Virus record (IMG/VR): IMGVR_UViG_3300042923_000190
Location: 1 to 22,229 of that record
Strand: one strand, 5' to 3'
DNA from: a virus
DNA: 22,229 nt
Shown here: one piece after another, positions 9,644 to 14,792 of the stretch
Position numbering within the stretch: the stretch's first letter is position 1
Layout: every line of letters begins with the position of its first letter
The notes under the pieces: model-generated
What the model saw: the letters and a program-made list of their open reading frames with translations, nothing else
Told to the model about the DNA's origin: nothing
Databases searched by the model: none
Made by a program: the position numbers and the translations under genes

Positions 9644-9651
9644 CCCTCCTT
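9644..9651 (-). promoter_or_regulatory. SD site fixing a TTG start
   Basis: AAGGAGGG followed by CTGTAC precedes the TTG at 9637. The same GGAGGGCTGTA leader precedes the fibre start at 12858, so the two leaders look related by descent or selection. Confidence 0.75.
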
Positions 9652-11260
9652 ATTTCGAATCTATTTGCTTCCAGTGGTATGCGTTATCGCCCATCTTTTT
9701 GCAGATGTACGTTCGATCCGGTACGTTTGTGCCACCCAGTAGTACGACGAGTCTACCGGAATTACCTGCATTTGCCGCTGGTAGTGTCGAAAGCTTTTCA
9801 GCCGTTGTTGTCGAGCCACCACCACCGCCGCTTACCGCGATTGCCGTCCAAACAGAGCCGTCGAAGTTGTAGGTCAAACCGTCGCCAAGGTTGAACGTTT
9901 GTTGACCAGCCGCATAGTAGGTCATCGACGGAACGGATGTAACTGTGAAGAATCCAATGCGTTTGTGGTTGGCGTTTGTTCCTGAAAAGAATGGTGCCGT
10001 CTGCGTACTAACTTCGATGATATTTCCAGAGAATACAAGTCCTGAACAGTTGTTAACTTCCATACCACGTTCCGCGAGAATCGTACTACGATTATCTATG
10101 GAAACGTTGTTAGCCAGAACAGTGTCCGAACATCCAACCAAGTAAATGTTGTCTGCGCCTGCCGTCGCGCTGGTGTTGGAATTGTATATCCGATTGTTGG
10201 ATACATCGCTGTTCGTAATTCCGTCCAGTATTATGCCGTATTTGTAAGCCAAGTGGGATGTGTTCCCTGAGAGTCCCATACCGTCAACGCCTGTGAATTG
10301 GTAGGCTGTTTCTCCCGATTCTGTTACAGTGTTGAACAACACTTTCAGATTGACAACCGTTGCTGTTGCCGTGATACCACGGAACGCGCCGCCGATGATG
10401 TTGTTTCCAATGACTGTCACGTTCGTTGCGTCTGTAGTGATTTCGATTCCGATTCTGTTCGCGCCTGCTGGCGTTACTGCGCCGACGTTGCTGAGTATGT
10501 TGTTTCCGACAATTGTATCGTACGGTGCGTACGTGTTGTAGAAGCCGTCACGGAGAACCAAGATACCAGATGATGCTGTTCCGTTGATATTGTTGTTCGT
10601 AATGATAACCCGTTTTCCACCGACATGCGTAATGCCGCGAGACTTGCTGTTCGTGATCTGGTTTCCAGTGATAGTGACGTCTTCGCAGTAGGCACCGTCT
10701 CCGACGTAGGACACAACCGCAATTGAATCGTCACCTGTGTTAATCAAGATGTTGTTAGAGACGATGACACCAGTCGATCCGTCTGTGATGTGAATCCCGT
10801 CCGCTAACGTGTTGTTGATGTTACAGTTCGTAATCACACACTCATGGCTTCTACGAACCAGTGCGAACGTTGCCGCTGAACCGTCACAAGATACATTGTC
10901 GACAATTACGTTAGTAGAGTCGATGATGTAGATACATTCTTGGGACGAATTCCGTACGGTTGCGAGGCTCTTAATTTTGAGGTCGCGTATGGTCACGTTC
11001 GAGGCGTTGCTAAGATAGATCGCGGACGCAGGATCGTTGTCGATGAAAATCTGCGAAGAATCACCGACGCCTGTTATCTTAACAGGTGCGTTAACAAAGA
11101 GCCTGTTAGAGATACGATAGTTGCCGGGAGGGATGAATAATTCCCCGTTAACAGACAGCGCCTTCGTTAACGCTTTTCTAAAGGCTATGTAATCATCTAT
11201 TACCCCGCCGCCTTTTGCTCCGTAATCGCGAACATCGAAGCGTACTGCATTGATTGCCAC
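9650..11260 (-). CDS. Tailspike, pectate-lyase-like beta-helix with parallel beta-helix repeats (536 aa)
   Basis: The N-terminus (RFDVRDYGAKGGGVIDDY, then ELFIPPGNYRI) is the pectate-lyase-3 motif. The body is a long right-handed beta-helix with Asn-ladder coils such as VTITGNQITNSKSRG, VIITNNNINGTASSG and VTVIGNNIIGGAFRG, typical of polysaccharide-binding or depolymerising spikes. A Gly5 linker (about 475-480) leads to a C-terminal module (491-536: LPAANAGNSGR, then DRTYICKKMGDNAYHWKQ) shared with the neighbouring fibre. The start is GTG at 11260. AAAAGGAGGG lies 6 nt upstream, whereas an in-frame TTG at 11266 abuts the SD and cannot be used sensibly. The gene begins 2 nt after the fibre stop. 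Enzymatic activity is possible but no catalytic site could be assigned. Confidence 0.8.
   Translation of the reverse strand: MAINAVRFDVRDYGAKGGGVIDDYIAFRKALTKALSVNGELFIPPGNYRISNRLFVNAPVKITGVGDSSQIFIDNDPASAIYLSNASNVTIRDLKIKSLATVRNSSQECIYIIDSTNVIVDNVSCDGSAATFALVRRSHECVITNCNINNTLADGIHITDGSTGVIVSNNILINTGDDSIAVVSYVGDGAYCEDVTITGNQITNSKSRGITHVGGKRVIITNNNINGTASSGILVLRDGFYNTYAPYDTIVGNNILSNVGAVTPAGANRIGIEITTDATNVTVIGNNIIGGAFRGITATATVVNLKVLFNTVTESGETAYQFTGVDGMGLSGNTSHLAYKYGIILDGITNSDVSNNRIYNSNTSATAGADNIYLVGCSDTVLANNVSIDNRSTILAERGMEVNNCSGLVFSGNIIEVSTQTAPFFSGTNANHKRIGFFTVTSVPSMTYYAAGQQTFNLGDGLTYNFDGSVWTAIAVSGGGGGSTTTAEKLSTLPAANAGNSGRLVVLLGGTNVPDRTYICKKMGDNAYHWKQIDSK
9653..9790 (-). other. C-terminal 'LP-x-ANAGN-GR ... 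YICKK ... WKQ' module of spike
   Basis: The last 46 residues after a Gly5-Ser linker match the C-terminus of the 531-aa fibre in landmarks: LPAxNAGNxGR, then D-x-x-YIC-x-K, then Y-x-WKQ. In this copy the module is uninterrupted. The DNA keeps short identical runs (GCTTCCAGT and TGCAGATGTA on the plus strand) with the fibre copy, indicating common descent. Confidence 0.7.
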
Positions 11261-11262
11261 GG

Positions 11263-12858
11263 TCAACCCTCCTTTTGCTTCCAGTCGTACTCGTCGGTTC
11301 CGATCTTAATGCAGATGTAATATTCGTCAGGGAATCCGTCGGTGCCTTGTGTAGTTGTGGACATTGTTCCGGTCGCGCCTGTAGTGCCGGGCGAGTACGC
11401 CGAATCTGTTCGTATCGCGGCTACTGTAGATGTAAAAGTTACAGTTGTGCCGGAGCCGCCTGTTGTCCAGCCGGGGTAGGATGCCGCCCGAATCTTCGTC
11501 GCAACCAAGGAGGCTGTGTTATCTGTCGTCAGAACAGGCACCTGTTTCGCTACCCCGTCCAACGTGACCACGACGTTCGAGTTCGCACCAGAGCCAGCGG
11601 TAATTAGTAGGCTTGATACTTCCGATACACCTGTAGCGCCGTTGATGACGTACTCTCTACCACGGTTTCCTGCGTTTGGTGCGGGTAGTGCCGCGCCTCG
11701 CTCTACGAAACTGTCGGTTAAGTTGTATCCTGCTGTAGTTGTTGGTTTTCCTGTGATCGATGCCCAAGCTACCGAACCGCCACCGCCACCGCTGGAGAAG
11801 TCCCAAGCGACACCATTCCAACGCTTCCATAGTAGATTCCCTGTATCGAACCACATGTCATCCAGCGTCGGTGTTGCTGGTGCGCTTGCCGCTACGCTGT
11901 ACAGGTTGCCGTTAAGCTTTCCGATCCAGTTGAACCCGGTCGTGTTTCCTGTGAGTGTCGAGTTAGTAAACATTGTGGCTTTCGATTCGTTGTCCACATT
12001 ACCTAACCCTACGTCAGCCTTTACTAGCGTTACACTACCTGTTTTGCCTGCAACGCTTGTGACAGCGGAGCCAGATGGTAGTTCGATCCAGTTGGCAAGC
12101 GTGGATGGTGGTAGCGCGTTGAGGATGAATGTAGCAGGTAAATCCGAACGTACTGCAAAATCACCTTTGATTGCCGTAGACAACGCAAGCATTGCGGCTT
12201 GGGAGTTTACTACGAAAGTGTTTGCTAGGGAGGTTACAGGGATGATAGATGCGTCCAGTAATCCGTTGGAGCCAACCAGTGGTACGGTTCCACTTGTTGT
12301 TCCTGTATTTCTGCTTGCCGCTGTTCCTGCGTCTGATATCTTCGAAAGAGTCAGCGTCGGGATGTCGCCTACAGTTAGTAGTGTTACACCACTAGTAACG
12401 CGACCTTTTGCGTCTACTTGAACCTTTGTATAGGTGCCGGGTGTTACGATGTTTCCCAACGTCAGTGTCATCGTCTTTGCCGTGTTGTCCAACGTCACAG
12501 TGCCGGAAACATCGCCGTTAGCCGTCAGTGCGTGTATGTGTGTTAGTGTAGCGGCGTCCGTGATTCCATACCCTGTAAGTGTGGTAGGTTTGCCTGTTAT
12601 ATACGTCCACGGTAACCCTTGTACGATGAGCCAGAGGCTTAGTAGTTGGTTGTTGATCGTGTTTCCAGTCAGACCTGCAATATCCGGCGCGGATATGTTC
12701 GAAGAGTTCAAGCCTATAATTCTGGCAAAGTTGTCGTTGATTGCTGTTTGAAATATCTTAAATAGTGGGTTCAAGTCTGCCCCTGTAGGAGAGCCTTGTG
12801 CGTCAACTGTTTCACCTGTTAAAAACTTATGGTAACTTGTATCTCCGATGTGTGACAT
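11263..12858 (-). CDS. Tail fibre with phage-fibre repeats (531 aa)
   Basis: Fibre-type repeats are plain to see: WTYITGKPTTLTGYGITDA (84-102) and WASITGKPTTTAGYNLTDSF (365-384), a GTYTKVQVDAKGRVTSG unit (141-157), and VTSVAGKTGSVTLVKADVG (266-284). LDDMWFDTGNLLWKRWNGVA (332-351) precedes a Gly5 linker (357-361). The C-terminal module (389-410 plus 509-531) is split by a 98-residue beta domain (411-508). Such proteins trimerise as thin fibres for host recognition. The N-terminus (residues 1-80, helical, including NPLFKIFQTAINDNFARIIG) is likely the attachment part. The start is ATG 12858 behind AGGAGGG. It lies between lectin protein and spikes in a surface-recognition block, and may be a fibre or a scaffold on which spikes assemble. 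Confidence 0.8.
   Translation of the reverse strand: MSHIGDTSYHKFLTGETVDAQGSPTGADLNPLFKIFQTAINDNFARIIGLNSSNISAPDIAGLTGNTINNQLLSLWLIVQGLPWTYITGKPTTLTGYGITDAATLTHIHALTANGDVSGTVTLDNTAKTMTLTLGNIVTPGTYTKVQVDAKGRVTSGVTLLTVGDIPTLTLSKISDAGTAASRNTGTTSGTVPLVGSNGLLDASIIPVTSLANTFVVNSQAAMLALSTAIKGDFAVRSDLPATFILNALPPSTLANWIELPSGSAVTSVAGKTGSVTLVKADVGLGNVDNESKATMFTNSTLTGNTTGFNWIGKLNGNLYSVAASAPATPTLDDMWFDTGNLLWKRWNGVAWDFSSGGGGGSVAWASITGKPTTTAGYNLTDSFVERGAALPAPNAGNRGREYVINGATGVSEVSSLLITAGSGANSNVVVTLDGVAKQVPVLTTDNTASLVATKIRAASYPGWTTGGSGTTVTFTSTVAAIRTDSAYSPGTTGATGTMSTTTQGTDGFPDEYYICIKIGTDEYDWKQKEG
11267..11276 (-). promoter_or_regulatory. SD site fixing a GTG start
   Basis: AAAAGGAGGG lies inside the last codons of the fibre gene. 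Spacing to the GTG at 11260 is 6 nt, so GTG rather than the TTG at 11266 is the start of the 536-aa spike. Confidence 0.75.
11335..11628 (-). other. Inserted beta domain in fibre C-terminal module
   Basis: Residues 411-508 of the fibre interrupt a module that is continuous in the neighbouring spike. Landmarks are ITAGSGANSNVVVTLDGVAK, then DNTASLVATKIRAASYPGWT, then GSGTTVTFTS, then a Thr/Gly-rich exit (TTTQGTDG). They recur in the nozzle protein. This may be an Ig-like or bacterial-immunoglobulin-type accessory domain; the family name is not certain. Confidence 0.65.
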
Positions 12859-12869
12859 ATACAGCCCTC

Positions 12870-13481
12870 CTACTTGGTGACAGAATAGTTCTCAACTTTT
12901 GCTACAGATGTCGGTGTTCCAGCCCGGAAGTGAATCAACCCGGTTTTGGAGTTCGATCCGAACGTCGTTTGGTCGCCGCCGCTGAGTGTAAAGTCGATAA
13001 CCTGTGTTCCGTTAATTTTGACCTTTATGTTAGCGCCTGTTACTACAACGCTTACGGTGTAGAAAGTGTCGTCCGCATAGGAGCCAGAGAAGGAGGCGAG
13101 GTCGTCGGTCGTGCCGCTCTCTTTGTACAACTTGACTCTAGTGGGTTCGATACCTACGCCTATCAAGCTGGTATCGCTTATGTATTTGACCAGTAGGTAG
13201 AACTCGTTGTAGTGCCCATCGCCAGCATCCCAGTCGGCTTTAAGGTCTGCCGTTACCGTGTAGTTCGCCAACCCCGCAACTGGTGCGGTTACAATCGCGT
13301 TGTGTTGGTCGCCTGCACAGTAGCCTTGATTGCTCAACACGCCCCAAGTGCCAGCGACTACCGTCCAACTTGCTCCCATTGAGGAAGCGTTGTCTGCCCG
13401 GTCAAAGTTGTCGGAGAACAATACATTTGAGATACCACTACCTACACCTTTTATCATCTGTGAGAAGCGGTTTCCGAACAT
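12870..13481 (-). CDS. Concanavalin-A-like lectin/LamG-type surface protein (203 aa)
   Basis: FSDNFDRADNASSMGASWTV (22-41), AGTWGVLSNQGYCAG (43-57), then beta-strands such as YTVTADLKADWDAGDG and YNEFYLLVKYI, and TFYTVSVVVTGANIKVKING, follow the jelly-roll pattern of concanavalin-A-like lectin/glucanase (LamG/DUF1080-like) domains. These bind glycans. The first about 20 residues (MFGNRFSQMIKGVGSGI) may anchor the domain. It starts at ATG 13481, 1 nt after the TAA of the spike-base-like gene, with only GGTGGTGTGG as SD, so translation probably depends on the upstream gene. With that neighbour it looks like a receptor-binding pair on the virion surface. No catalytic residues were recognised. 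Confidence 0.65.
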   Translation of the reverse strand: MFGNRFSQMIKGVGSGISNVLFSDNFDRADNASSMGASWTVVAGTWGVLSNQGYCAGDQHNAIVTAPVAGLANYTVTADLKADWDAGDGHYNEFYLLVKYISDTSLIGVGIEPTRVKLYKESGTTDDLASFSGSYADDTFYTVSVVVTGANIKVKINGTQVIDFTLSGGDQTTFGSNSKTGLIHFRAGTPTSVAKVENYSVTK

Positions 13482-13482
13482 A

Positions 13483-13743
13483 TTACCACACCACCAATAT
13501 GCCGGACGCTGTTGTTGCCGCCATGACCTTGGTCACGCTGATCGGATAGAGTCCGACAGGGATGTTGGTAAACGTTACGATTGCACCGCCTGCCAGTGTT
13601 ACTGCGAGGTTGCCAGTCGTTCCAACGTATACTCCAGCGGATTTCTGGTACACCGTCGAGTCGGATGGAGTCGCCGATACTGCGTGTTCGATGAATGCGC
13701 CACGTCCTGCGTCGTCCTGCATGATGTTTACTCCTGTGCTCAT
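13483..13743 (-). CDS. Spike-base-like protein (RCAP_rcc01079 family-like, 86 aa)
   Basis: The sequence matches the pattern of the spike base family known from the Rhodobacter gene transfer agent (rcc01079/GhsA): HAVSATPSDSTVY, then GVYVGTTGNLAVTLAGG, then VTFTNIPVGLYPISVTKVMA and a hydrophobic end (ILVVW). Length about 86 aa is right for the family. These small beta proteins sit on the capsid and hold a receptor-binding spike. The next gene encodes a lectin-like protein, consistent with that role. It starts at ATG 13743 with AAGGAGGGG immediately after the U-tract of the upstream terminator. I assign the family from recalled pattern only. A small head or neck protein is the alternative. Confidence 0.6.
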   Translation of the reverse strand: MSTGVNIMQDDAGRGAFIEHAVSATPSDSTVYQKSAGVYVGTTGNLAVTLAGGAIVTFTNIPVGLYPISVTKVMAATTASGILVVW

Positions 13744-13757
13744 TTAAGCCCCTCCTT

Positions 13758-13800
13758 ATTAAAAACACCCATCCACTCGTACTAGAAGTAGATGGGTGCT
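13758..13800 (-). terminator. Rho-independent terminator after major capsid gene
   Basis: On the minus strand CACCCATC (13798-13791) pairs with GATGGGTG (13773-13766), 8 perfect base pairs. A further 5 pairs (two of them G-T) sit below a 7-nt loop. Five U residues follow (13765-13761), then AATA. It lies 23 nt after the capsid stop codon and only 15 nt before the next start codon, so there is no room for a promoter between the terminator and the next gene. Confidence 0.88.
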
Positions 13801-13823
13801 TTGATGTGTTGTTTAAGCGTTTA

Positions 13824-14792
13824 TTAAGCCGCGCCAGTTCCGAGGGAACCAACGATACCACGGAAGTCGGAGTAGCCGACCGAGAAACGCATGTACGCAC
13901 GATATTTGGCTTGCATCGTGTCGAAGTCGTTTTCGTTCGCGAACTCCAGCTTTTCTCTCCAGAAGAAGTTAAGTTCGGCTACAGTAGGGTCGATAACGTA
14001 CCATGCTGTATCGGAACCACCTTGGTCAGCGGAGAGGTAATCCATGACCACGACTTTCTTGATCTTGTTGCCGACGATATTCTTCTCGCTGGATGCATTG
14101 GATACGTTGGTAGTCAACGTACCGTTACCAAGCATAGAGATCGAAGGGCTTCCGACGATAGTTTCGGCGATGTTAGCCAGAGCAGGAGGTACGACGAGTA
14201 CGGACGGTTTGCATTGAACCAAGATACCTGCATCGTTTTTCTGCGTAGCCGCTTGTGTCAATGCCGCTTTGATGGACTTGTCCGACAATGCCGCATCTGC
14301 CGCCGTAGCGCCGAACGCCGTCGACAAACGGTTGTTGATGACTGTCTTATCGTTAAGCGCCATGTGCGTGGTAGAGATAAGCGGCTTACCGTCGAAACCG
14401 TTCACTGTGAAAGCGTCGATTAGGACTTTAGCGGCTACCTTCTCAACTGTAGCACGTGCGGCGATACCGAACTTGGCAGGCATCTTGTTGATTTGGTTAT
14501 ACATGGCATCCTTGATAAGTTTGCGTTCGACCGTGAAGCCTTTCGCATATTCTTCGTGGATGTATTGGAGCGGCAATCCGCGAGTCGGATCGTCGTACTT
14601 GATAGAACCGCCGGACTCTTTTACTTCGAACAATCCGAATGCTCCCATCCGGTAGTCGGTTTCCACCGCTTTATCCGAGTTCTGAACCTTGAATACTTGG
14701 CTGAACTGTTCCGGTAACTCACGGTAAGAATCGAAGAATATCTTCCGAAGTCCCGGCTCCAGTAACCGTCCATATGTGGATGATACTAACAT
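13824..14792 (-). CDS. Major capsid protein, HK97-fold (322 aa)
   Basis: Size, position after scaffold and decoration genes, and mixed alpha/beta sequence fit a major head subunit. The stretch RKIFFDSYRELPEQFSQVF (residues 16-34), then DPTRGLPLQYIHEEYAKGFT (about 78-97), and the C-terminal DFDTMQAKYRAYMRFSVGYS (about 289-308) resemble Mu gpT-like or HK97-fold capsid subunits. The ending 'K-x-RAYMRF-x-V-G-Y-x-DFRG' is characteristic of P-domain strands. No protease gene is present, and scaffold is separate, so the 5-kDa delta-domain type processing is not indicated. It starts at ATG 14792 with AGGGGGAAG upstream. A strong terminator follows. Several hundred copies per particle are expected for this role. 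Confidence 0.85.
   Translation of the reverse strand: MLVSSTYGRLLEPGLRKIFFDSYRELPEQFSQVFKVQNSDKAVETDYRMGAFGLFEVKESGGSIKYDDPTRGLPLQYIHEEYAKGFTVERKLIKDAMYNQINKMPAKFGIAARATVEKVAAKVLIDAFTVNGFDGKPLISTTHMALNDKTVINNRLSTAFGATAADAALSDKSIKAALTQAATQKNDAGILVQCKPSVLVVPPALANIAETIVGSPSISMLGNGTLTTNVSNASSEKNIVGNKIKKVVVMDYLSADQGGSDTAWYVIDPTVAELNFFWREKLEFANENDFDTMQAKYRAYMRFSVGYSDFRGIVGSLGTGAA

Follow-up and report, generated by a model that had tools for sequence, protein, structure and literature searches.

The window analysed here, the whole 22,229-base virus record IMGVR_UViG_3300042923_000190, carries a gene pair that we read as a head spike of the GTA/Carin1 type, in a podovirus whose host is probably Gram-positive. 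The spike base is firmly identified, and the adjoining lectin-domain protein is likely to be its fibre. We consider it probable that the two form a putatively glycan-binding spike on the capsid vertices. Since a pedestal gene and a coupled lectin gene follow the capsid gene, small spikes of lectin type probably stand on the corners of the capsid, besides the tail spikes of the virion. The late genes are all on the minus strand, in the order terminase, portal, scaffold, a 171-aa protein, capsid protein, the 86-aa and 203-aa proteins of the pair, a 531-aa fibre-like protein, two beta-helix tail spikes, adaptor, nozzle and two large proteins. The two open reading frames of the pair lie exactly where the original prediction placed them. 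The features of this region are as follows.

13824..14792, minus strand: major capsid protein, HK97-type, Mu gpT/Phage_capsid_4-like (PF25209, E 1.5e-17; phrog_371, E 1.6e-25)
13762..13802, minus strand: intrinsic-terminator-like hairpin (RNA fold -24.3 kcal/mol, z -7.7, then a U-run)
13483..13743, minus strand: head spike base protein, 86 aa, RCAP_Rcc01079 family (NF048002, phrog_12296, profile, AF2, Foldseek)
12870..13481, minus strand: concanavalin-A-like lectin-domain protein, 203 aa (PF06439 below the gathering score; three-sequence profile to CBM66), proposed spike fibre
11263..12858, minus strand: 531-aa fibre-like structural protein (PHROG tail/structural matches; own strong Shine-Dalgarno AGGAGGG)
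9650-11266: 538-aa tail spike, with a C-terminal domain similar to that of the 531-aa fibre

The 86-aa protein belongs to the spike-base family, and its membership is settled by sequence, profile and fold. It matches NCBIfam NF048002 (spike base protein RCAP_Rcc01079 family) at 45.7 bits (E 5.7e-12) against a curated cut-off of 28 bits, with residues 19-86 aligned to positions 15-85 of the 85-position model, and it matches phrog_12296 (E 8.7e-12), a family that PHROG labels tail fiber. Searched as a single sequence it is led, weakly, to 8cjz_h (E 0.0064) and 6tb9 (E 0.045) at the head of the list. A profile built from 80 relatives in viral, phage and genome contigs reaches RcGTA Rcc01079 (6tb9) at E 3.9e-18 and the Carin1 spike base (8cjz_h) at E 5.3e-10, so that the family proposed for this protein in the original prediction, that of the gene-transfer-agent spike base and not some other, is borne out. 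The AlphaFold2 model of the monomer (71 sequences) has a pLDDT of 88 and consists of a beta-rich core at residues 21-86, where pLDDT is 94-97, preceded by a low-confidence N-terminal arm (1-20). In a Foldseek search of the PDB, 6tb9_A1 and 8cjz_h came out on top (TM 0.70-0.71, probability 1.00), while all remaining matches had a probability of 0.87 or less and a TM of 0.45 or less. PDB entry 8cjz is the mature capsid of bacteriophage Carin1; attributions of the entry to Jorvik, Ebor or R4C did not fit. P0001 searched alone in the genome contigs gave no match.

The base gene has a strong Shine-Dalgarno sequence (AAGGAGG), and sites of this type stand upstream of most genes in the window. The lectin gene, whose ATG follows the base stop codon after 1 nt, has a weak site of its own, a GGTGG stretch, as had been noted from the sequence at the outset. 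The lectin gene is thus translationally coupled to the base gene. The gap of 80 nt between the capsid gene and the base gene contains the strong terminator-like hairpin, which was found by RNA folding and is absent from the list of a simple terminator scan. This hairpin may set the stoichiometry of capsid to spike, as partial read-through would suit far fewer spikes than capsid subunits.

The 203-aa protein has a concanavalin-A-like lectin fold, as originally proposed. The case is weaker from the protein alone, which matches PF06439 (concanavalin-like group) at E 5.7e-5, under the gathering score, and solid with a small profile: three sequences (the 203-aa protein with relatives L275 and L004) lead to the levanase CBM66, its nearest relative of solved structure, at E 4.4e-16, a match carried partly by L275, as the single 203-aa query did not list CBM66. 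Lectin-family Pfam matches are found among the three aligned members. In L275 the related domain is the lectin domain of a secreted glycosidase, in a genome that shares its phylum with a Dethiobacter MAG. The lectin domain spans residues about 20-203, after a non-canonical N-terminal stretch at 1-18 (MFGNRFSQMIKGVGSGIS); the single-sequence AlphaFold2 model is poor (pLDDT 43). Glycan binding by this protein is suggested by its fold similarity to lectin and CBM domains. A search of the phage collection with P0002 returned no match.

Where on the virion the pair sits is best judged from the two family members with solved structures. In RcGTA, the base (Rcc01079) forms a pentamer on each capsid pentamer, with its N-termini as the hold, and the base pentamer carries one fibre molecule (Rcc01080) through fibre residues 2-10, in which alternating (iso)leucines occupy five pockets as a five-point-star peptide (PMC7296036). 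The RcGTA fibre mediates capsule binding (PMC7296036; PMC10218006). RcGTA resembles the window in base family and fold, in an adjacent gene of glycan-binding type and in an HK97-type capsid. It differs in being a long-tailed alphaproteobacterial gene transfer agent with its spike genes at a separate locus outside the capsid cluster, and its fibre is a 325-aa protein with an IALGLGLGL anchor, whereas the window lectin has 203 aa and no such anchor.

Carin1, a podovirus of Cobetia, is closer. According to its PDB title and genome record, from which the Carin1 details given here are taken, gp40 is a structurally identified and validated head spike base, and the genes run capsid, cement, gp41, base (gp40), gp39, gp38, connector, nozzle. 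Shared with the window are the podovirus type, a base gene between the capsid gene and the connector, a tightly spaced lectin-like neighbour and a tail-spike depolymerase. Carin1 differs in its Gram-negative marine host and in gp39, which has 384 aa and starts MLGLGLGI; between capsid and base it has a cement gene and a 29-aa gene where the window has the terminator-like hairpin. The window itself shows the arrangement of a two-gene head-spike module, a base gene in the head region followed by a fibre/lectin gene (MCP, base, lectin, 1-nt gap), and contig L002 repeats its pattern of capsid, base, lectin, fibre/spike genes, adaptor and nozzle. We favour mounting on the capsid because Carin1, with the same gene order, is a podovirus with a structurally validated head spike base, and because the genes directly upstream of spike bases in related loci (68 genes), where recognised, mainly encode portal, capsid or head-tail proteins.

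The pair could instead be a tail appendage, with the base on the adaptor or nozzle and the lectin as an accessory receptor-binding protein of the tail-spike cluster that follows. Three fibre/tail-spike genes do come directly after the pair, ahead of adaptor and nozzle, and the PHROG label of the family reads tail fiber. Two loci keep a tail position in consideration. A long-tailed prophage in a Dethiobacter MAG (L111, 7248-8207) encodes, in its tail module after the tape-measure gene, a 319-aa fibre-like protein with a spike-base domain fused on at its C-terminus, and the domain may serve on tails too. In Verrucomicrobia phage P8625, the base comes, with its partner, after a tail fibre gene. 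We nevertheless regard this placement as unlikely for the window. Both family members of solved structure, those of RcGTA and Carin1, are mounted on capsids, the window gene order matches Carin1, the coupled lectin gene separates the base from the tail spikes, and the related phage API480 and contigs L196-L199 possess an adaptor without any spike base. The 531-aa fibre-like gene is context and lies outside the spike pair. Its C-terminal domain and that of the 538-aa tail spike are alike (LPAANAGNSGR...YICKKMGDNAYHWKQ in the spike and LPAPNAGNRGR...YYICIKIGTDEYDWKQ in the fibre).

To place the lectin gene, about 90 related spike-base loci were compared. Partners were defined as non-redundant genes of at least 120 aa directly 3' of the spike base, with genes of the same loci as controls, and the anchor motif as four alternating hydrophobic residues at the start with small or polar residues between. 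The motif occurs in 25/69 partners and in 5/1087 control genes (Fisher p 2.6e-28), although, while suggested by RcGTA, it was defined after inspection of this first set; in a second set it was present in 6 of the 22 partners. Among the five hits in controls, two or more (L070, L079) are apparently partners that have been displaced. The N-terminus of Carin1 gp39, MLGLGLGIARQ, has the motif. In 50/103 pairs, base and partner lie -1 or +1 nt apart (+1 in the window), and Laminin_G_3 is the commonest Pfam family among downstream partners (9/72). The pairs of P8625 (gp23-gp24) and of Flavobacterium phages likewise consist of a base followed by a ConA-lectin/adhesin gene; unlike the window, they belong to other morphotypes and occupy other positions, have canonical anchors such as MIGLGLDLSL and are annotated as tail fiber. 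Anchors of this kind (MIGLGLDLSL, MIDLGINLF, MLSLSLSLT, MLGLGLGI) were seen at partner starts across podo-, sipho- and myoviruses. Rhizobium phage RHph_Y25 and its relatives (L007, L013-L018) have no lectin partner: there the base gene is immediately followed by a small-terminase-like gene and the large terminase.

The N-terminus of the window lectin (MFGNRFSQMIKG) does not have the anchor motif, and its score is equalled or exceeded by 74/1087 controls, so it is not clearly anchor-like. A reading of this N-terminus as one of the flavobacterial anchors of ISNAIKG type was also tried and dropped, as scoring against the 1087 control N-termini gave no distinction. Because the motif is absent from the window lectin, we infer its attachment to the base from position. 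The proposal of a capsid-mounted spike is partly borne out: Carin1, with its gene order and validated base, favours it, and the lectin is without the anchor seen in RcGTA, Carin1 and many relatives. The missing anchor also suits a different arrangement, in which the base is a capsid vertex protein that forms a simple cap or carries some other protein, and the lectin belongs to the virion, or is secreted, independently of it; several relatives have spike bases that precede terminase or other unrelated genes. Against it stand the 1-nt spacing with no good Shine-Dalgarno of the lectin's own, the prevalence of lectin-type domains among partners, and a comparison of N-termini in which no other window protein begins with the strict motif. 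The nearest relatives of the window base (L205-L210) also have partners with non-canonical starts (MLNIIKNTIN, MLNLLRNSIN), so there may be a second anchor type. We hold a lectin independent of the base to be improbable, and the 203-aa protein to be the likely fibre of the head spike.

In the favoured reading, five 86-aa bases would be fixed to each capsid pentamer by their N-terminal arms, and each base pentamer would hold one 203-aa lectin protein by its N-terminus. A particle would then have at most 11 flexible lectins, at the vertices other than that of the portal. They would reversibly bind a host envelope glycan (capsule, exopolysaccharide or wall polymer) and so retain the particle close to the cell until its tail spikes and short tail engage. 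Accessory capsid fibres are also found on Phi29, a podovirus of a Gram-positive host. Its head fibres (gp8.5) are trimeric, stand at quasi-threefold sites and have no spike base. They are unrelated to the spike proposed for the window, and the likeness lies in the accessory capsid fibres and the Gram-positive-host podovirus.

The phage is, from its protein matches, a podovirus related to the Paenibacillus larvae podophages, and it has beta-helix tail spikes, in keeping with the morphotype first assumed. API480/SV21 provide the best matches of the terminase (38% over 89%) and the nozzle (32% over 82%), and the only matches of the portal (37% over 81%). A Gram-positive host is likely because of these matches, the AAGGAGG sites and a weak match to a BhlA-type holin at 30-251. 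Paenibacillus phage API480 has no spike base, its adaptor following without one; it was rejected as a carrier of the pair, as its 87-aa protein after the capsid is unrelated. The nearest contigs (L196-L199; capsid 60% and terminase 50% identical to the window) likewise have no spike base and carry a different 164-aa protein between capsid and adaptor (e.g., L199:11509-12003). Since API480 is without a base and L196-L199 have another protein in the slot, the spike pair is an exchangeable cassette. The 164-aa protein, for which no PHROG or PDB match was found, is possibly another capsid decoration. Family members above the cut-off occur in 1/398 genomes of the Dethiobacter phylum and in 5/190 of the class of a Rhizobium, so that Gram-positive examples are rare.

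Structures of lectin spikes on capsids are available for very few tailed particles; the window contributes a likely case with a Gram-positive host. The novelty falls short of what the original prediction implied, since Carin1 is already a podovirus with head spike bases and depolymerase tail spikes. More tentatively, and at somewhat less than even confidence, spike bases could serve tailed phages in general as sockets at the vertices for lectins that can replace one another, each held by a short peptide at its N-terminus; this phage would then extend the device to a Gram-positive host, with a lectin held by a different, non-star N-terminus. A small gene directly 3' of a spike-base gene, often with an alternating hydrophobic start, can be identified as probably encoding a capsid lectin, and genes with such anchors in hundreds of unannotated phages are now labelled hypothetical or tail fiber. 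Since these partner genes are recognisable, it becomes testable from sequence whether two-step adsorption, by the head and then by the tail, is common among podophages. A further arrangement was seen at L003:4962-5533, where two tandem 91-aa paralogues, distantly spike-base-like and without a match to the spike-base family model, lie 3' of a portal-like gene.
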